Below are positions 1 through 16,368 of a DNA stretch of 16,368 bases, piece by piece. The first letter of the stretch is position 1. Each line of letters starts with the position of its first letter. Below the pieces are notes generated by a model, which was not told the origin of the DNA, ran no database searches, and was given only the letters and a program-made list of their open reading frames with translations. Made by a program: the position numbers and the translations under genes. The stretch comes from an uncultured Erysipelotrichaceae bacterium (lineage in GTDB: Bacteria; Bacillota_I; Bacilli_A; RF39; UBA660), in the NCBI GenBank assembly GCA_902797005.1, contig CADBRE010000101.1:1-16368 (forward strand). Direction: 5' to 3'.

Positions 1-1029
1 AGTTAAGTATTTTTCTACTTTAATATTTCTTGCTAATACTAAAGATTCTTTAGTATCTTCATCATATCCAGCAAATAATAATGTTTCATTTTTGTCTCGT
101 ATTGTCATTCCGTTTTCATTAAGCGTATTATGAATATTAGTGTTGCTACTTGTTATATCTAACCCATCTTTATTGAATGTGTAATCGTTCTCAGTTTTTA
201 CCTTTGAAACACCGTTTTCTAATGTTTCATTTATTGTTGTTATCTTAGCTTCTGAAGATGTTAATCTAGAAGTTACAGATGATATCTGTGAGGTGACATC
301 ATCGGTTGTTGCATACTTGTCTAATTTACTTGTTACATTTGCATTTATGCTAGACTCGGTAGTTTCTAAGGTAGTTGAAGTGACATAATTAGTTTGAACT
401 TCCGTTTTAAAATCATCTAGAACTGCTTTAACACTCAGCGCATATGTATCATCAGTATATTTAGTAGCTATTATCCAGTCGGAACTACTATAGCTCCCTG
501 CGTTTCTACTTGCTCTACACCTATATAAATCCTGGTCATCTTTTATCCAAACATCTCCAACATCGTAAGGTGGAACAGGTTCGGTAACAAATACTCTCCT
601 TTTACTATCTGCAGTATCTTGTGCAGCATTAGCAATAGCTAGTGCTTGAGTTACATCGGAATCCGTTAATTTTTCCCAAGAATACACATTATTAGTAAGT
701 GCAAATCTATATGCATAACCTGTATTAGAGTCATAATATAAATCGCCCAAGTGATTATTTTTATCTGCATCTTTTGTCCACTCACTTGCAGGAAGATTAT
801 TCAAAGTAGGAACACCATTATAAAACCAGGTAGTGATATTACCATCTACCTGGTCTTGTAGGCTTTCTATGTCTCTTGTTATTTTATCAACATAATTATT
901 AAGTTCATTTTCTACTTTCGTCAGTCCATTATTTAAGCTTTTAATTGCTACTACATCTTGTTCTAATAATCTAAATCTTCTTATCAAGTCCTCTGCTGTA
1001 ATACTCTTCGGAATGTCTCCTACTCTCAT
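1..1029 (-). CDS. Tail fibre / receptor-binding protein, N-terminal 343 residues (runs off left edge)
   Basis: Open frame of 343 codons with no stop, cut by the window edge, so the C-terminus is missing. Residues about 10-65 are heptad-like coiled coil. Residues about 67-122 form a compact Trp/Tyr-rich module beginning WFYNG and including GDLYYD, GYAYRF and YSWEKL. A second such module spans about 144-193 (PPYDVGDVWI, LYRCRAS, DWIIATKY). About 195-285 is again Thr/Ser-rich coiled coil, then NENGMTIRDKNETLLFAG, a beta-rich segment typical of phage distal host-specificity proteins. These modules are known mainly from Firmicutes phage tail proteins. Likely role: trimeric fibre binding a cell-surface glycan. 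The ATG overlaps the stop of the upstream giant gene by one base (TAATG), which implies translational coupling. The receptor and any enzymatic tip cannot be judged. Confidence 0.75.
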   Translation of the reverse strand, partial: MRVGDIPKSITAEDLIRRFRLLEQDVVAIKSLNNGLTKVENELNNYVDKITRDIESLQDQVDGNITTWFYNGVPTLNNLPASEWTKDADKNNHLGDLYYDSNTGYAYRFALTNNVYSWEKLTDSDVTQALAIANAAQDTADSKRRVFVTEPVPPYDVGDVWIKDDQDLYRCRASRNAGSYSSSDWIIATKYTDDTYALSVKAVLDDFKTEVQTNYVTSTTLETTESSINANVTSKLDKYATTDDVTSQISSVTSRLTSSEAKITTINETLENGVSKVKTENDYTFNKDGLDITSSNTNIHNTLNENGMTIRDKNETLLFAGYDEDTKESLVLARNIKVEKYLT

Positions 1030-4000
1030 TACCAATACACTCTCCCATCTTTTATCGTAAAGCCTAATTCTTCTAATATCTTTTGCTTTTCTTCTAAAGA
1101 TATATTTTTTGATTTTACATAATCTACAATTTGTGAATTATAATCATTGAAAGTAAAATTGCCATACATTTTTATGAGAATAGCCTTTTCAGGAATAGTT
1201 GCTTTTAACGAATTAATATAGTTAATTGCCTTGTTTTTGGCACTTCCGCTTATTGTTTTACCATTAGCATCTTTATCAGCTTTAAAGTCTTTTACTTTTG
1301 ATAAATAGTAATCAGATATATTACCCACTTTACTATACAAATACGGTTTTTCATATTCTTTGCTAGTGTAGTCTACATTTTGGCTATCAAAGTATTCTTT
1401 ATTAGCTACATATTTTGAATAACCAAATACATTTTTTAATACTTTGGCTTTTTCTTCGTATGATAAACTCTCATAATTTTTGCTTTGTATTGTTTTATTT
1501 AACAACTTATAAGCTGTTTGGCCGTATGTCTTTTTGTATTGTGTATATTCACTTGCCGACATTCTATATGTGTTGTTACCATAATTAATATAAGCATAAG
1601 GAATACCAGGTATAACACCAGTTTCATCAGTTTCATTATAAACTTTCTTTAGTTCTTTATCTAACTCTGTAGTAATATCTTTTGACTTTGAATAAGGTGC
1701 TATAAAGCTTTCAAATGCTCTTTCAATAATATTTGAACTTTGTTCTTTCTCATTACCCCATATGTCAGTTGCCACTTCAAGTTTATTTCTCAAACCTGGT
1801 AGCTTATACATTATACTTCTTACCGTCTGCTCGCCAAACCTATAAGGGCTATTTTTAGATACTTTAGTTGAACGTTTTTTATCATCAAATACACTAGCAA
1901 TTTGTCCAAATAATGTAGGAAAGAATTGACTTGTATAGTTTTGTACCATACTTTCGCCCATGCCTGCCAGTTTTTGTGTACCACTACTATAAGATGTTAA
2001 TACATTTGTTAAGCTTTGTAGAAAAGACATTTCATTAAGAGGATCAAATGTTTTCGCAAGTGTGTCAACAATGATATTGGCATCCCATTCTTTTTGTTCT
2101 TCCAGCTGTTCAAAGATATTTGTGCCTACAAATAATGGCATTGCCACAGGTGATAACCATGATAAAGAATAAGAATTACCGCCAATTTTTATTGAATATT
2201 CGCTATCCCCTAATTGGCTGTCATATTTTCCTTCTTTGTCATCATCTCCGGCTCCTTTTAAGAACCCGGCTTTTGCTAGTGCATATCCCAATAGTGTTAA
2301 AGATGTTCCTGTCAATCCTTGAGACAAGTTATCAACAAATTGACTAGCACTAATATTGCCTTGTTTTAATTGATAAACATCATAAGAGACATTTTTAATA
2401 AGGCCAAGTGGAGAATACTTTGCTCCAGCTTTTGCTACATTTATTGGTGTTTTCTTGAATGGTACTGTAGCTTTTATAGCATATCCTAATGCTTTGTGAT
2501 TTCTTTCAAATTGATTTATTGAAGACGCTAGTTTACTATATTGCCTAAATGTTGCAATCTCTGCTTGCTCTACAGAATAATTGATTCCTTTTTGTACTAT
2601 TTCAGGATTGTTTTTAATATCAGCTTCTGTAGTTATATTGTTAGCAGTTAAATATTCCTCTAAAGTGCTTTGAAATGCCCTTTTACTAAAGAACCAGTCT
2701 TCCGCTTCTAATGCATTACTATTAAAATTGCTAATCTTTTCTAATGTTTTATTTTTAAAGATTTCTTTCTTACTTTCAATAGAAGTTTTTTCATTATATT
2801 TAGCTTCTCCTGTAATAACACTTTTCATTTCATTAGCAGTTGTTTTTGAAAAATCTTTAACAAAGTCACTAGATTTTTTCCAAGTTTTAGTTCTATCTTT
2901 AATAGGTAATACAGTTTCCAAAGTTCTTGCCATTGCATTTTTAACTTTAATCGTTCCATTCATAGCTACATTAGACACTACATTTCTAATATGTGTTTTA
3001 GGATTACCTAACATCGCTAAATATCTCCAAGCATCTATCTTCTCACCTGTAGTTGTCTTTAATTGATTTGCTATATCTTGTTTAAACTCTTCTACAGCAT
3101 TGTTAAGGTCTGCTTGTTCAAAAGTTCCATCGCTTTTATATACTTTTAGAATCTTTTCTACCATTTCAGGAGTTATTTGTACATTTTCAAATGATGTTTC
3201 ACCTCTCGCCTTAGCTCTCTTAACTAATGTCTCATACATTTTTAGCTGTCCTTCAGGAGTTAGTTTTTGTATTATTGATAGTGCCTGTGTTGCTTGTCCT
3301 AAATCAGTACCCATTATAGATATATCCATCACAAGTTCTTGCGCTAATTTACTATCTCCTCTTCTAGCCGCTTCTTGAAGTAGTCTTTCTGCTAAAGCGA
3401 CATCTTCAGCTCTTGGAAGCTTGTCACTATCCATCATATTTCTAACTTCATTTATAGCATTATCATAGCCTAATCTTTCTAACTTGCTATTTGCTAGATT
3501 TAAAGACTTTTGATTAGATTGTGGCATGTAGTTTATTTTGTTAACATCCAAATCCTTTATAAGTACTTTGTCTTTAAGCACGTCACTTTCCGTTGATGTT
3601 TCTACCCAACTTCGTTGTTTAGAATTATTTAATTGGCTTGCTATTTTTTCTGCAGATGCTTTAATTACCATATCACTATTTCTTGATAAAGGCATTATAT
3701 CTTTAGTATTGTTATTGTTCTTTTTAGTTATATTATTATTACTTTGTTGCATATTATTAGTAGGTAATACTCCACTGATTTGACTATTTTGGTTATTTGT
3801 GGTAGAATTACTTACATAAGAAGCAGATGCTCCAAAATCAGCCTCGCCTTTTATAGGAAGAGCTGACTGAGCATCTGCTTTTTCTAATCTTTGTAATCTA
3901 TAATGATTTTCGCCATCCGCTCTAGAAACTACATCAAATTCTAAATTAAACAAAGAATTGCCTATTTGTAATCCATTATAATAATAATTCCATGTATTAT

Positions 4001-6491
4001 ACTTAGTTCTTCCTTTATTTTCTAAAGTCTGATTAACGAGCCTTGAATTTTCAATAATATCCCCCAAATCAGAAAATACATTTAAATGTTCTTGCAGATA
4101 TTTACTTTGCAATCTATCATTATATATTTTATTTATGCTTTCTTTTATATCGGAATTAGTAACAAGTATTTTGTTTCCATCATTTACAAATTCATTTGTA
4201 TTATGTGAATTGTTAAAAATGTCAGTTGCAATATGATATATTTCATTAGCACTTTTATTACTTATATCATATATCTTATTATCAATTTTAACCACATTAT
4301 CAAAATTATTAGTTTCATTTTTAAATATGTCTTTTACATTTTCATACTTATTTAATAAATATTGTTGTATTGGTATGTTACTCTCACTCATTTTAGGCAA
4401 CGGTAATTCATTACCCGTATTTATTGAATTGTAAATAGTGTTTCCGACACCCGCTCCTTCATAAACGGAATTAACCCACTCTTCAATACCAAACTTAACA
4501 TATTTATTGCCCTGTCTATTTAATGTTTCTTTAGTGTTTGGCTTACTTGCAAACCAACTTTGTATAGCATATTTAGTTAATTCTTCACTAGAGTTAGTAT
4601 TCAAATTATTACCTATTAATTTAGCAACATTTAACCATTCAGCTTTTGTCCTTCTTCCTGTATTTCTATAATCCGGAACAATGTTTTTAGCCTTATTTAA
4701 GACACTATTGTCAAAATCAGACAAATCTTTATATTTGGAATATTCTTTATTGATATCTTTAAATGTTACTTCCCTATTCAAATCGGCAAACTTTATGTTT
4801 CCGTTTTGTTTTTCTTCTAGATATTGTAATCTTTTTTCTTGTTGCTCATCTAACTCAAATGGTAAATCTTTTAATGTATCTAGTTCTTGTTGTTCTGATT
4901 GCGTTAATTTATTTAGGCTTTCAGCATCTATATTTGTGTTTTCACTTGCATTATTAGATAAAGCACTATTTTCTAATCTTTTAGTGTTTTGATTTAATTC
5001 TTCAATTTGTTCCTGTAAATTGCTTATCTGGCTATCTAATCTTTCTTGTTGTGATTTTTGTGTTACTTTTTCTCTTCTGCTCTTTAATTCTTCTAAAACA
5101 GCATTAGATGCATCTATTTGTGCTTGTGTGTCTTGTGATATGTTCTCAGACACGTTTTTAGGTGCATTTGAGGCCACTTCTTCGCTTACATTAGTGTTTG
5201 TACTATTTTGTGTATTTTGCTCTTGTAAGTTACTGTTTTGAGTGCTTGTGCTTTCAGTATTGTTAAGATTAATACTTGTTTCGTCTAAATCCACTTTACC
5301 ACCAAGCATTCCACCTGTAACTCCACCAACAAATGCGCTATAAAAAGCATTCTTCCATGTGTCGCCATTAATGAAAACTTTAAGATACTCAACTGGATCT
5401 TTTTCTTTCTCTAGTGTGGCTTTTTTGTTTAACTCATCTATAAACTCTTGTACAAACTCTTCAGCACCTTCACTTCCTACATTTGCCAAAATATCTAAAA
5501 CTCTTTCATTTCCTATAAAACTACTTAAACCTTTTTTTATAGCCTTACTTACTTCACTAGACTCTCCTCCAGTTAAGCCTTTAGTAGCAGAACCCAAAGC
5601 TTTACCAACAAAATATTCAGCCGCAGTATTTAAAGTTGCATAAATTGCTGCACTGGTATCATCCACTCCATCTTGTTTTGCACCATAATAGCTATCTGAA
5701 TACATACTAGTCCAATATAATCCGGTACCTGCGCCAGGTATAATTGCATTCAAAGCAGTTGAAGAACCAATTTTTGAACCTTGATAGATAATATCTCCTG
5801 CTATTTTACCAAATCCGCTCTCATAGCTATTAGAAACTTTAGAATTCCACATTTCACTTTTAGTTGGTAGGTATTGCTTATTTCCATTCTCATCTAAGAT
5901 AACTGTTTTGTTTCTACTAAATGCTGATAAATTATTTTTAGCTCCCTCAATAGCTCTACCTATAGTTTTATCATAAGTTGTTACATTCGCATTTTCAACT
6001 TCAGCTTTATTTAATTCATATAAGGCTTTATTTCTATCAGAAATGGCATTATTAGTTTCGTTTATCAATTCTTTTACTTCTGGTATTTCATTTACTTTTC
6101 TTGCCGTTTCTCTCGCTATTTCCTGTCTATCCACTGCACTAGGCATTGCACTATTTTCTAGTGTCTCTCTCGTTGTTGCAAACACATTAGGATTTCTAGT
6201 ATTGTTATTAACTCTTTCAGCCTCTTCTTTTGTAGGTATCACACCTTCTATTCCCTGTTGCTTTAGCATTTCATTTCCAAGCTTAATTCTTGTGTTAACA
6301 AGATTAGTTTGTGTTTGTCCTAGTTTCTTTTGTGCTGTTTCCAAATTGGATTCTAAAGATTTTATTTCATCTTTAGAACTATTAGTAGTACTAGATGGAA
6401 TACTAGTACTATAATAATCACTGTATTTAGGAATATTCAAATTTTGTGATTTAGTTAATTTGTTATAATCACTATATTTTATTATTGCCAT
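1029..6491 (-). CDS. Giant polyvalent internal (ejection) protein, 1820 aa
   Basis: ATG 7 bases after AAGGAGG. Seen in order: two KYSDY motifs (residues 5-9 and 22-26); coiled coils about 40-75 and 120-165; a Gly/Ala-rich hydrophobic region about 225-400 that could interact with membrane; an Asn/Gln/Ser-rich linker and coiled coil to about 510; a Lys/Trp-rich unit about 570-690; a candidate BECR-nuclease-like unit about 745-875; an Asn-rich linker; then a long helical block from about 950 with WRYLAMLGNPKTHIRN (1155-1170), VPFKKTPINVAKAGAKYSP near 1343, and a hydrophobic SWLSPVAMPLF stretch near 1440. The C-terminal part (about 1500-1820) resembles the tail region of other Firmicutes phage polyvalent proteins (LPD38-like, from memory). 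Its position after the tail hub and before the fibre matches P22 ejection genes. Inferred: packaged in the capsid, injected first, helping DNA cross the envelope and perhaps delivering an effector. Role fairly likely; domain names less so. Confidence 0.75.
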   Translation of the reverse strand: MAIIKYSDYNKLTKSQNLNIPKYSDYYSTSIPSSTTNSSKDEIKSLESNLETAQKKLGQTQTNLVNTRIKLGNEMLKQQGIEGVIPTKEEAERVNNNTRNPNVFATTRETLENSAMPSAVDRQEIARETARKVNEIPEVKELINETNNAISDRNKALYELNKAEVENANVTTYDKTIGRAIEGAKNNLSAFSRNKTVILDENGNKQYLPTKSEMWNSKVSNSYESGFGKIAGDIIYQGSKIGSSTALNAIIPGAGTGLYWTSMYSDSYYGAKQDGVDDTSAAIYATLNTAAEYFVGKALGSATKGLTGGESSEVSKAIKKGLSSFIGNERVLDILANVGSEGAEEFVQEFIDELNKKATLEKEKDPVEYLKVFINGDTWKNAFYSAFVGGVTGGMLGGKVDLDETSINLNNTESTSTQNSNLQEQNTQNSTNTNVSEEVASNAPKNVSENISQDTQAQIDASNAVLEELKSRREKVTQKSQQERLDSQISNLQEQIEELNQNTKRLENSALSNNASENTNIDAESLNKLTQSEQQELDTLKDLPFELDEQQEKRLQYLEEKQNGNIKFADLNREVTFKDINKEYSKYKDLSDFDNSVLNKAKNIVPDYRNTGRRTKAEWLNVAKLIGNNLNTNSSEELTKYAIQSWFASKPNTKETLNRQGNKYVKFGIEEWVNSVYEGAGVGNTIYNSINTGNELPLPKMSESNIPIQQYLLNKYENVKDIFKNETNNFDNVVKIDNKIYDISNKSANEIYHIATDIFNNSHNTNEFVNDGNKILVTNSDIKESINKIYNDRLQSKYLQEHLNVFSDLGDIIENSRLVNQTLENKGRTKYNTWNYYYNGLQIGNSLFNLEFDVVSRADGENHYRLQRLEKADAQSALPIKGEADFGASASYVSNSTTNNQNSQISGVLPTNNMQQSNNNITKKNNNNTKDIMPLSRNSDMVIKASAEKIASQLNNSKQRSWVETSTESDVLKDKVLIKDLDVNKINYMPQSNQKSLNLANSKLERLGYDNAINEVRNMMDSDKLPRAEDVALAERLLQEAARRGDSKLAQELVMDISIMGTDLGQATQALSIIQKLTPEGQLKMYETLVKRAKARGETSFENVQITPEMVEKILKVYKSDGTFEQADLNNAVEEFKQDIANQLKTTTGEKIDAWRYLAMLGNPKTHIRNVVSNVAMNGTIKVKNAMARTLETVLPIKDRTKTWKKSSDFVKDFSKTTANEMKSVITGEAKYNEKTSIESKKEIFKNKTLEKISNFNSNALEAEDWFFSKRAFQSTLEEYLTANNITTEADIKNNPEIVQKGINYSVEQAEIATFRQYSKLASSINQFERNHKALGYAIKATVPFKKTPINVAKAGAKYSPLGLIKNVSYDVYQLKQGNISASQFVDNLSQGLTGTSLTLLGYALAKAGFLKGAGDDDKEGKYDSQLGDSEYSIKIGGNSYSLSWLSPVAMPLFVGTNIFEQLEEQKEWDANIIVDTLAKTFDPLNEMSFLQSLTNVLTSYSSGTQKLAGMGESMVQNYTSQFFPTLFGQIASVFDDKKRSTKVSKNSPYRFGEQTVRSIMYKLPGLRNKLEVATDIWGNEKEQSSNIIERAFESFIAPYSKSKDITTELDKELKKVYNETDETGVIPGIPYAYINYGNNTYRMSASEYTQYKKTYGQTAYKLLNKTIQSKNYESLSYEEKAKVLKNVFGYSKYVANKEYFDSQNVDYTSKEYEKPYLYSKVGNISDYYLSKVKDFKADKDANGKTISGSAKNKAINYINSLKATIPEKAILIKMYGNFTFNDYNSQIVDYVKSKNISLEEKQKILEELGFTIKDGRVYW
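3867..4259 (-). other. Candidate BECR-type (phage barnase/EndoU/colicin-like) nuclease domain within the giant protein
   Basis: Residues about 745-875 of the 1820-residue protein. The pattern reads as an N-terminal helical hairpin (SDIKESINKIYNDR, then YLQEHLNVFSDLGDIIENS) followed by a beta-rich part with R828, W834, a run of Tyr, FNLEFDVVSR and H863-Y-R865-L-Q. This order, helices with a 'L..iien' segment then a W-containing strand and a final H-Y-R-L strand, resembles the phage BECR nuclease families described in phage polyvalent proteins. It is flanked by Asn/Ser-rich linkers, as expected for an inserted module. The match is from pattern memory only and catalytic residues are not assigned. 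Confidence 0.4.
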
Positions 6492-14260: not shown

Positions 14261-14349
14261 TATTTTCCTTCTTTCTTTGCTGCTCTTTTTGGTTTTTCTT
14301 CTATTACTATTTCTTGTTTTCTTCTTTCTCTTAAAACTTTCTTTTTCAT
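14260..14349 (-). CDS. Small basic peptide, 29 aa, coupled to large terminase
   Basis: A 30-codon frame whose ATG overlaps the large-terminase TGA (ATGA) and whose TAA overlaps the next ATG (TAATG). A strong GGAGAGGAGA lies 9 bases before the ATG, inside the end of the terminase gene. The peptide is about half Lys, Arg and Glu (MKKKVLRERRKQEIVIEE, then KPKRAAKKEGK), with a positive excess, so binding to nucleic acid or an acidic partner is possible. Because both junctions are tight overlaps and the ribosome binding site is strong, I think it is a real gene missed by length cut-offs. It resembles no family I know. It might only exist to couple translation of the membrane protein to the terminase. 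Confidence 0.6.
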   Translation of the reverse strand: MKKKVLRERRKQEIVIEEKPKRAAKKEGK

Positions 14350-15710
14350 ATCACTATTATCTCCTCTCCTATTTCACTATTTCTTGGTCTTTCAAATTCA
14401 AAGTTGAAAGTTGTTTCTTTGTTAACTATTTCTTTGCTAGGTGCTGTCCTACTTACACAGAAGTATCTTAAAGCATCTGTAATGTGTGTTAGTTCATGTG
14501 GTTCTGTTGCTACATCATTTGGATTCTTATCATCATGTTGTAATTGTGGTAAACATCTGATTATATTCAGGCAATTACTGAATATCTTTAAGTCACAATC
14601 TTCTATTACTTCATTTGTTTGTTCATGTCTTACTTTTCTAGGTTTCAACCACTCCTTAACATTTAACCAACCTGCTACTCTATTGTTACTTGCTTTTGTA
14701 AACATCAGTCCTTCATCTCTAAATAACTCAAATGTGCTTTTGCCTGTATCTCTATTTCTATTCCATAAGTCAGGTGGTGCGTATATATTCTTTATGTTTT
14801 CCTTTCTTATGTAACTTCTTAGTACTTGTGCTGCTTCACTTACAATTAAGTTATCTCTGTGGATTTCTTTATAAGCATAGGCATGTCCTTTTGTATCTAC
14901 CGCAAAGAATAATACCGCAAACATATCTAGTCCGTAGTCTAGTGCTATATATTTATCCCAGTATTCTGGTATCTCAAATGGCTCTATTACATGTAGGCTT
15001 CTTTTATATTCAGGAAAGAATTGGCCATCAAATACATCCCAATTACCATATAGCATTGCCTGTTTTCTATCTTCTGGCAAATTTTCTAGTATTCTAACAT
15101 AATTTGGATCGTGTTCCATTAAATATTTATTCTCATATACATTAGATGGTATGAATAAATAATCATCTGAGCTTTCTGTTCCTACATATTCTTTATCAAT
15201 GAATAACCTTTTAACCCATTGATGACCAACACCACCAGGATTGCATGTAAAATACATTCTTGGAACAAATACTTCTTTCATATTCCCACTCATACGATTA
15301 GATTCAGTTAGTGCTTGGAATTGAAATTCAGTAAACATTGTTGCTTCTTCCATTGTTATTACTTCGTAAGCTTGTCCTTGGTACTGTAACACATCTTTTT
15401 CGGCGTCACAATATCCTAGAACTATTCTTGAACCATTAGGAAATATAAACTCTTTTGTGCTTTCTTTAAATACTGCTATACCCTTTAACATCTTTTGTAA
15501 TTGTAAAACGTGATTCTCACGTAATTCTTTTAATGTCCTACGCAATAATAATATTTGTATTCCAGGATAATTAAGTGCTAATAAACACATTTTAATTCTA
15601 GATATATGTGATTTACCACCACCACGGCTCCCACCATAACATATATATTTATTTCTTGCTTTACAAAACTCTATCTGTTTAGGATACAACTCACCAATAT
15701 CGAACGTCAT
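14346..15710 (-). CDS. terL: Terminase large subunit (packaging ATPase-nuclease), 454 aa
   Basis: ATG 8 bases after AAAGGA, in an ATGA overlap with the small subunit. ATPase part: Walker A GGSRGGGKS near residues 26-34; Arg-rich LLLRRTLKELREN near 54-66; a Walker B-like YEVITMEEAT near 115-124, where the usual Asp-Glu pair reads Glu-Glu; coupling motif FTCNPGG near 154-160. Nuclease part (RNase H fold): ALDYG near 257-261, PPDLW near 313-317 and THITDAL near 409-415 supply the acidic residues D259, D315 and D413 (approximate). It hydrolyses ATP to pump DNA through the portal and cuts concatemers. Length is typical of the compact terminase family in Firmicutes phages. The Walker B substitution is the one odd point; the enzyme otherwise looks intact. 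Headful versus site-specific packaging cannot be told. Confidence 0.93.
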   Translation of the reverse strand: MTFDIGELYPKQIEFCKARNKYICYGGSRGGGKSHISRIKMCLLALNYPGIQILLLRRTLKELRENHVLQLQKMLKGIAVFKESTKEFIFPNGSRIVLGYCDAEKDVLQYQGQAYEVITMEEATMFTEFQFQALTESNRMSGNMKEVFVPRMYFTCNPGGVGHQWVKRLFIDKEYVGTESSDDYLFIPSNVYENKYLMEHDPNYVRILENLPEDRKQAMLYGNWDVFDGQFFPEYKRSLHVIEPFEIPEYWDKYIALDYGLDMFAVLFFAVDTKGHAYAYKEIHRDNLIVSEAAQVLRSYIRKENIKNIYAPPDLWNRNRDTGKSTFELFRDEGLMFTKASNNRVAGWLNVKEWLKPRKVRHEQTNEVIEDCDLKIFSNCLNIIRCLPQLQHDDKNPNDVATEPHELTHITDALRYFCVSRTAPSKEIVNKETTFNFEFERPRNSEIGEEIIVI

Positions 15711-16078
15711 TGACTAAGTTCCTTTATTTCATCAGACATTTTGATTGTTATTGAATCATTGTTAGTTGATTCGCCTTTAGCAAGCGCTCTTTTATCGTAT
15801 AACGTGCCTATAGCTGTTGTTAGATTGTTAATAGGTATATCATCTCTATCTAATCCCTTATCTAATTTATCTAGTGCCTTATTTAATAGTCTTGTTGTTG
15901 TTTCTATAAAGCTTTCCTTTTCTTGCTCGTACATTTTCGGATTTTCTTCAACTATTTTCTTAACAGTTTTATCACTTACTCCCGTTTCTTTTGATGTAGC
16001 ACTGTAAGAATTAGTCCTTACATGGCTTTTTATTACTTCCACTTTTTTCTTAGTTGTTGTCTTTACTCCACTTGCCAT
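15707..16078 (-). CDS. terS: Terminase small subunit (DNA-recognition), 123 aa
   Basis: ATG 10 bases after AGGAG; the gene follows the tRNA by 39 bases. Residues about 13-48 (VEVIKSHVRTNSYSATSKET, GVSDKTVKKIVEENPKM) form a helix-turn-helix like that of phage small terminases. Helices about 50-105 (EKESFIETTTRLLNKALDKL, NLTTAIGTLYDKRALAKGES) should oligomerise. The C-terminal tail (MSDEIKELSQ) would contact the large subunit. It binds the packaging site and loads the large subunit, and the ATGA overlap implies coupled, near-stoichiometric synthesis. It has no ATPase motif. The call depends on the HTH plus position right before terL and on usual family length. Confidence 0.85.
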   Translation of the reverse strand: MASGVKTTTKKKVEVIKSHVRTNSYSATSKETGVSDKTVKKIVEENPKMYEQEKESFIETTTRLLNKALDKLDKGLDRDDIPINNLTTAIGTLYDKRALAKGESTNNDSITIKMSDEIKELSQ

Positions 16079-16117: not shown

Positions 16118-16191
16118 TGGTTGCATCTCTAAGAATCGAACTTAGATTACAAGAGTCAAAGTCTTGTGTCCTGCCGTTAGACGAAGATGCA
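16118..16191 (-). tRNA. tRNA-Gln (anticodon UUG), CCA encoded
   Basis: All four arms fold on the minus strand. Acceptor TGCATCT pairs with AGATGCA (7 bp, U1-A72 as in tRNA-Gln). The D arm contains AACGGCA. Anticodon stem CAAGA/TCTTG encloses loop CTTTGAC with anticodon TTG. T arm CTAAG/CTTAG has loop TTCGATT. Discriminator A is followed by encoded CCA. Length is 74 bases. It reads CAA codons, which are abundant in the Gln-rich late proteins here. It lies 4 bases after the U-tract of a terminator and 39 bases before terS, so its transcript probably comes from read-through. Confidence 0.93.
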
Positions 16192-16195
16192 ATAT

Positions 16196-16217
16196 AAAAA
16201 GCCTACCATTGTAGGCT
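16196..16217 (-). terminator. Intrinsic terminator at the 3' end of the right-edge RNA
   Basis: Perfect 7-bp stem AGCCTAC/GTAGGCT around loop AATG on the minus strand, followed by TTTTTATATT (partly the leader of the tRNA). The T-run begins at the base of the stem. This is a standard rho-independent terminator. It ends transcription entering from beyond the window edge, so the late genes after it need read-through or antitermination. Confidence 0.85.
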
Positions 16218-16368
16218 CAGTAACTTAATGATACTGCTACTAATGATATAAGGCTTACTGCTTTGCAAGTACAGTCATTTCGGATAGAGAAGAAATATGT
16301 TACCATCCCTACTCTCACATACCTACCTGTGTTCTTCTCCCTACATCTTTTAATATCACCAGTAGCAC
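16196..16368 (-). ncRNA. 3' part of a candidate structured RNA, truncated at the window edge
   Basis: Seen on the minus strand: bases 16367-16353 pair with 16249-16235 as a 15-bp helix including two adjacent G.U pairs. Within it, 16340-16332 pair with 16294-16286 (GGAGAAGAA with TTCTTCTCT, 9 bp with one G.U), enclosing a CACA/TGTG hairpin and an ATG-GTAA-CAT hairpin with a GNRA-type loop. A separate ACTG/CAGT hairpin (16275-16257) follows, then the terminator. The G.U pairs become A.C mismatches on the plus strand, so only the minus-strand RNA pairs fully. By hand count 53 of 138 bases from 16231 are G or C, above the surrounding genes. An open 49-codon frame also runs through it (see rejected items). 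Family unknown; it may be the 3' end of a larger phage RNA. Confidence 0.55.

Follow-up and report, generated by a model that had tools for sequence, protein, structure and literature searches.

The window, as we call the whole stretch of 16,368 nucleotides analysed here, is an entire contig (G000:C101) of a 1.02-Mb genome assembled in 175 contigs. A structured RNA is encoded on the minus strand at its right end (16196–16368), where the contig end truncates the 5′ side of the RNA. It closes with an intrinsic terminator (16195–16218, minus strand), found by a terminator scan as a stem-loop at 16218–16199 with a T-rich tail (shuffle mean 0.1); the first-pass annotation had drawn a terminator there. 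Directly after the terminator lies a tRNA-Gln gene with anticodon ttg (16118–16191, minus strand), called by a tRNA finder and by Rfam. The gene order past tRNA-Gln is a small terminase candidate (15707–16078, minus strand), the terminase large subunit TerL (14346–15710, minus strand; phrog_979, E 3.9e-44), the portal protein and the major head protein. The small terminase candidate is named for its position before TerL; it matches neither PHROG nor Pfam, and IMG/VR contains 22 relatives of it, including 8 close ones (L002–L009). Farther on, a minus-strand ORF of 1820 residues (1029–6491) lacks a PHROG match and perhaps encodes a virion protein. The RNA had been described as lying beside tRNA-Gln and upstream of packaging genes, and the identification of TerL and portal supports this placement. 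It had also been described as something other than a protein gene, and no ORF of at least 50 residues overlaps 16196–16368.

The minimum-energy fold of the minus strand has −47.9 kcal/mol (z −2.34), and 2 of 200 shuffled sequences fold equally well. It contains a 15-bp helix with two G.U pairs, 16367–16353 (5′ strand) with 16249–16235 (3′ strand), as drawn in the first-pass annotation, and we refer to it as helix B. By reading, the 15 pairs are followed by G16368 opposite G16234, a G.G mismatch at the branch point. The assignment of the 5′ strand with its mismatch base (16353–16368) rests on the fold and the family register described below, and that of the 3′ strand (16235–16249) on the fold and family covariation. 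Helix B encloses an insert of 103 nt (16250–16352), assigned by fold and alignment, which holds a GUAA-loop hairpin and a CUGUACUUGCAAAGCAG hairpin. The GUAA sits in a stem loop of the minimum-energy fold, in agreement with the GNRA-capped hairpin proposed before. Beyond helix B, a hairpin C can be drawn by reading at 16220–16234 (GUAUC-AUUAA-GUUAC, with one U.U mismatch in the stem), with base 16234 standing opposite 16368 as the second G of the mismatch; the minimum-energy fold leaves this stretch unpaired. The plus strand scores a better z (−3.25, with 1 of 200 shuffles equally good), so fold energy cannot by itself choose the strand of the window RNA.

In the Rfam search of the window, tRNA is the sole family that reaches its threshold (16121–16191), and the tRNA model gives no match within 16196–16368. 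Four matches below threshold at E up to 10, rseX (0.76), SpF41 (2.4), JA04 (3.8) and snR79 (10), are taken as chance. The first-pass annotation had suggested that the RNA is the 3′ end of a ROOL or GOLLD RNA. The setting fits, with tRNA-Gln nearby and terminase and portal genes following. ROOL itself (RF03087, gathering threshold 99.1 bits) occupies such a place in L003, which served as a positive control: a 605-nt match of 155.9 bits (4947–5551) lies just before tRNA-Gln and a relative of the small terminase candidate. No ROOL was found in L002, searched in the same way. Neither ROOL nor GOLLD matches the window even at E up to 10, in a search to which the window offers only the 3′ part of the RNA. 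The ROOL model also found no match in the window's own genome, a search that shows little, as none of its 14 controls was detected either.

A complete relative bears on this point. The window RNA matches L027, a stretch of the contig that also includes L040 and L048, with 75% identity over 164 nt and 78% over query positions 5–143. The copy in L048 is complete, and the part that the window lacks is, by reading, a hairpin of about 25 nt, which we call hairpin A. Thus the window is cut at hairpin A. Rfam finds no family in L048, ROOL and GOLLD included. With a missing part of only about 25 nt and no Rfam match, the RNA in L048 has the size of a module, about 180 nt, rather than that of a 600-nt ornate RNA. 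We therefore rejected a ROOL or GOLLD 3′ end, and for any other known large ornate RNA the idea is scarcely credible, similar neighbourhood notwithstanding; what stands of the earlier suggestion is that ROOL does occupy such places.

The corresponding 178 nt of the relative fold with a z of −4.08, and none of 200 shuffles does equally well. A two-sequence alignment of window and relative retains three elements, namely helix B, a hairpin in the centre and the hairpin CUGUA..GCAG; of the aligned pairs, 22 are identical, 7 differ on a single side and 2 on both. As far as this comparison tells, the helices drawn for the window RNA are conserved only in part. The 103-nt insert recurs, among the searches made, only in the contig of L027, L040 and L048.

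By comparing L004, L005, L027 and L032–L039 we derived a common architecture with two helix types. A module consists of hairpin A, helix B (12–15 bp) enclosing a variable insert, and hairpin C, and the loops of hairpins A and C are complementary. Type 1 modules carry UACUGAUGAUAU with AUAUCAUURGUA as helix B, and type 2 modules carry UUGAGUAGAUAU or UAGAGUAGAUAU plus the partner strand. The length is roughly 90–300 nt, and modules stand singly or in short arrays, 1 to 4 per locus strand. The loop of hairpin C in the window predicts UUAAUG in the absent hairpin A. With model R2 the relative in L040 scores 61.5 bits. The window module, which lacks model positions 1–24, reaches 22.5 bits (E 0.095); the low score is explained by the missing 5′ end, and the membership of the window module in the family rests on its likeness to L027 and L048. 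The window RNA seemingly belongs to a phage RNA family that has not been described.

Pattern scans of IMG/VR yielded 96 stretches for type 2, 69 for type 1 and 9 for a second type 1 pattern. A pattern scan of named bacterial genomes gave 8 records, of which R2 confirms 5 (L148, L150–L153); L146 was kept by the module scanner, and L147 and L149, on which R2 was not run, are supported by neither. Over 200 loci and the window (1.73 Mb) the scanner returned 359 raw matches on both strands, compared with 2 raw matches on one mononucleotide-shuffled strand. Because helix B is nearly palindromic the models score both strands, and 140 of the 359 matches were dropped as opposite-strand or overlapping duplicates, the higher-scoring strand being retained. 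This leaves 219 distinct modules, 137 of type 2 and 82 of type 1. Inserts of at least 3 nt were searched. Modules were located via helix B, so the sequence conservation of that helix partly reflects how they were chosen.

The pairing of helix B and of the two loops is supported by covariation. In alignments of short-insert modules only, 29 of the 137 type 2 modules (A1) and 14 of the 82 type 1 modules (A2), 97.5% and 98.7% of the cells for helix B and the loop-loop contact are paired. Ten pairs in the 29 modules and eight in the 14 are doubly changed, and none of 500 shuffles reaches any of the five measures. The second pair of type 2 helix B, counted in 137 modules, is A-U in 80, U-A in 44, G-C in 3 and C-G in 3. 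In the family helix B is 14 bp long and closes on the G.G mismatch, which 125 of 136 modules of type 2 have and 80 of 82 of type 1; read over all modules, the helix gains two further pairs before the mismatch. By reading, the G.G mismatch of the window lies one pair further out than in the family.

The wobbles indicate the strand. Helix B contains 257 G.U and 12 A.C pairs over the 219 modules, and the loops contain 208 and 12, respectively. The strand specificity claimed for the two G.U pairs of the window extends to the family, and it assigns the window RNA to the minus strand. Wobbles on one strand imply an RNA or one fixed DNA strand and argue against a function as double-stranded DNA.

Loop-loop pairing was scored in all 219 modules. 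It reaches 95.4% in type 2 and 96.3% in type 1, and 1000 swaps of loops between modules give at most 89.1% and 87.8%. The 29 modules from bacterial genomes found with R2 give 94.8% against a swap maximum of 87.1%, or 96.6% against 85.3% once the register of L216 is corrected; as R2 includes the loop columns, these modules are not a wholly independent test. Within loci, a module's own loops pair at 0.961 (134 comparisons) and loops of different modules at 0.858 (100 comparisons). Pairing across modules inside one array was also considered, and is disfavoured by the better fit of own pairs. The contact may form within one molecule or between two copies; either would give the same covariation.

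At least 6 perfect base pairs can be formed by hairpin A in 85% of modules (8% when shuffled) and by hairpin C in 69% (12%). The register of helix B runs on through the loops, and although the relative of the window RNA carries the sequences of both hairpins, its minimum-energy fold is an extended duplex. Both hairpins exceed all 100 swaps, while the pairing of A5 with C3 does not. Together with the conserved G.G mismatch, this favours the hairpins over the duplex. Hairpins with loop pairing are thus the preferred structure, and the extended duplex is a possible alternative state. By position, arm positions −4 and −5 do not rise above swaps and −6 does in both types; loop positions −8, −9 and −11 do so in both types and −10 in type 1, and −7 and −12 do not.

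The frame of the module is constant, and its contents are highly diverse. Among the raw scanner matches, insert length ranges from 15 to 213 nt with a median of 69. Clustering by sequence divides the 219 inserts into 181 groups, 151 of them singletons, and the Chao1 estimate is about 656. Forty-four pairs of inserts are related; 37 have full-length flanks on all sides, and in 7 a flank is cut short. In 34 of the 37 both flanks are at most 0.66 identical, which may be read against 300 random pairs with a mean of 0.611, a 95th percentile of 0.647 and a maximum of 0.787. The three pairs with related flanks are M047/M078, M089/M111 and M119/M125. Twelve of the 44 pairs join a type 1 scaffold to a type 2 scaffold. 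Inserts can be 95–100% identical in unrelated flanks: 105 nt are shared at 100% by L075 and L103, and 162 nt at 96% by L064 (type 2) and L173 (type 1). Thirteen of the 17 insert pairs with 90–100% identity have full, unrelated flanks.

Related inserts also keep their own base pairs. Fifty-six double compensatory changes were counted in 18 insert pairs, hand-chosen from the 44, compared with 13.9 in a column-shuffled control. Because related inserts retain these pairs and turn up almost unaltered in other scaffolds, the insert is probably the unit under selection. Insert-only folding energy barely exceeds chance (mean z −0.65 and median −0.45 for 190 inserts of at least 40 nt), so some inserts may be unstructured.

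A few inserts are tRNAs or resemble them. ARAGORN calls a tRNA in 2 of the 219 inserts, and a T-arm-like motif is present in 11. Rfam tRNA matches lie inside modules of L004, L053, L102, L103, L050 and L075. One tRNA-like insert of about 105 nt recurs at L050:3970–4089, L075:1284–1401, L103:3744–3861 and L224:2279–2398; it scores 32.8–42.5 bits as tRNA over about 120 nt, which implies a long insertion, and helix B takes the place of the acceptor stem. In L224 this insert stands, by reading, within a third helix B sequence. For the majority of inserts no tRNA is recognised.

The genomic neighbourhood of the modules bears on their function. Of the 219 modules, 211 do not overlap an ORF of 100 residues. 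Neighbouring ORFs are on the same strand in 167 of 190 cases upstream and 165 of 209 downstream. We scanned 104 of 124 distinct same-strand neighbour proteins upstream and 106 of 123 downstream. The upstream ones include the minor head protein phrog_581 (15 of 104) and the transcriptional regulator phrog_36 (12 of 104), and the downstream ones TerL (7 of 106) and scaffold protein (6 of 106). Portal is also found, and head and packaging genes are frequent among the neighbours that can be named; for most neighbours no name could be given. A placement in the late operon is suggested by this named minority. A terminator-like site occurs within 200 nt after 49% of 142 arrays, compared with 10% for shuffled sequence and 23% for the reverse strand. 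In L038, at about 1550–1750 upstream of the modules, repeats of a TGATACA-like word followed by a TATAAT-like site were seen by eye, a possible late promoter.

The co-directional neighbours, the regulator and minor head genes upstream with TerL and scaffold genes downstream, and the nearby terminators would also suit modules that act in cis as parts of the late mRNA, in processing, insulation, stability or antitermination, with the inserts as tolerated filler. We consider this unlikely, if a serious alternative. The chosen insert pairs hold compensatory changes of their own, a few inserts are whole tRNAs, and filler would hardly stay 90–100% identical in unrelated places, as the 13 of 17 pairs do.

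Pfam HNH proteins are also among the neighbours (7 of 106 downstream, 4 of 104 upstream). HNH endonucleases, hairpins that flank a variable cargo and the occurrence in unrelated loci could point to a mobile DNA element whose hairpin ends act as single-stranded DNA, and candidate types would be a MITE, a PATE, an IS200/IS605-like element or an integron-like cassette. A near-empty candidate module with a 9-nt insert, on the minus strand of L074 at about 7126 and of uncertain strand, would fit as well. This explanation is improbable, since tRNA inserts need transcription, modules run in the direction of the genes, and the wobbles are strand-specific, a pattern that one fixed single DNA strand would also give.

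Portal and terminase among the nameable neighbours, and two complementary loops that meet at one junction, recall a packaging-motor RNA like phi29 pRNA, in which modules would form a ring on the portal through their loops. This possibility is very slight. Rfam has no match to a phi29-type packaging RNA in the window or L048, tRNA being the only family at gathering in the window and none being found in L048; the inserts are variable, a locus strand carries anything from 1 to 4 copies, and loops differ among modules within one phage, as read in L034.

The site itself appears to be exchanged. L008 and L009 (5200–6060) are nearly identical from the T-tract of the terminator into TerS and unrelated upstream, where L008 carries tRNA-Ile and L009 a module. 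From the border in this one case, the place before TerS is an exchange site. ROOL was found beside modules in 2 of 60 different loci, some of which overlap, scanned at Rfam gathering. In L221 (672–1623), a bacterial genome of the window's family, a tRNA, a ROOL (178.9 bits) and two modules stand in series. The ROOL of L003 (4947–5551) adjoins type 2 modules and tRNA-Gln, and its linker contains, by reading, a T-arm-like stretch, GGGTTCGAATCCC. In L096, a skipping-rope RNA (RF02924, 55.3 bits, 3656–3739) lies just 5′ of a type 2 module.

Modules recur in the window's own genome. Contig C175 has two model matches and, by reading, a third module, in which a different helix B surrounds the tRNA-like insert of L050, L075 and L103. 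An HNH gene lies on one side of it and on the other a TerL gene, which is preceded by an unnamed small ORF. In an order-level scan of 385 genomes including this one, type 1 matches occurred in 37 at E 0.001 and type 2 matches in 6 at E 0.0001, all of the window's family. A phylum-level scan of 392 genomes, again including its own, found type 1 matches at E 0.0001 in 5, one of which lies outside the family. Whole-genome matches thus lie almost wholly within the window's family, in genomes of about 0.8–1.8 Mb. Confirmed matches among named records belong to uncultured Mollicutes, Bacilli, Bacillota and others, and many of the IMG/VR samples with modules are presumably from the rumen.

The isolate-rich phage and plasmid collections gave no convincing module match. 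A search of annotated phages and plasmids with the window RNA gave no relatives; one type 2 module had a best E of 0.9 in the phage collection and nothing in plasmids, and one type 1 module matched, at E 0.06 and with 53% of its query length aligned, three records of staphylococcal phages. With genome matches almost confined to the family of the window and no convincing ones in these collections, the RNA family may have been overlooked so far. Metagenomic phage records with a related TerL (L238–L240) had no module at E 0.001. Two sets of candidates were rejected: L201 shares a 17-base insert word without alignment beyond it, and in six of the first eight word matches (L025, L026, L028–L031) no module was seen by eye around the word.

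Taken together, we think it fairly probable that the window RNA is one unit of a modular RNA system in phages, a late-expressed scaffold with exchangeable RNA payloads that would act in trans. The array would be transcribed late, with or just ahead of the packaging operon, and would often end at a terminator. The scaffold of helix B, hairpins A and C and the loop pairing would fold, protect the insert and present it away from the rest. Activity would reside in the insert, which would work in trans as a tRNA, a tRNA mimic, a decoy or a protein binder, and payloads may be exchanged by recombination across the conserved helix B. Diversity with exchange is expected of conflict-related or host-specific functions, and such a function might apply here. 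More specifically, and only tentatively, the modules might be an RNA display platform in which one self-folding scaffold presents hundreds of payloads, and these would work at a late stage of infection to divert or inhibit the defences of the host or competing phages; phages would trade payloads by recombination as they do anti-defence genes, with ROOL and tRNAs as other tenants of one locus for RNA arms. Whatever their targets, the inserts provide a ready list of small RNA domains for binding tests.

In the literature covered, mostly outside subscription journals, no system with a constant RNA frame and exchangeable RNA contents was found. The functions of ROOL and GOLLD are poorly understood. 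If the proposed system is real, it would place both in a common setting, as RNA tenants of a single site of exchange ahead of the packaging genes. A published study describes kissing loops in ROOL RNA (PMC12286853). Like ROOL (RF03087), the modules are phage or prophage RNAs near tRNAs, in the same kind of place and with loop pairing, but ROOL has about 600 nt and another secondary structure. GOLLD, according to the same study, is a phage RNA near tRNAs with kissing loops, a linker that sometimes carries phage tRNAs, many members longer than 800 nt and a conserved 3′ region (PMC12286853). It resembles the modules as a phage RNA near tRNAs with paired loops and a linker or insert that may contain a tRNA; the modules differ in having roughly 90–300 nt and a variable part enclosed by one helix.

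The pRNA of phi29 is phage-encoded, has a role in packaging and possesses two complementary loops adjoining a stem. The modules differ from it by the lack of an Rfam match, by their many different inserts and by their copies in arrays. Phage tRNA genes are a further comparison, as the inserts are tRNAs in L004, L053 and L102 and score as tRNA with a long insertion in L050, L075 and L103, whereas the majority of inserts are not recognised as such. Integrons and CRISPR arrays likewise combine a constant frame with variable contents. Unlike in those systems, both the frame and the contents of the modules look like structured RNA.
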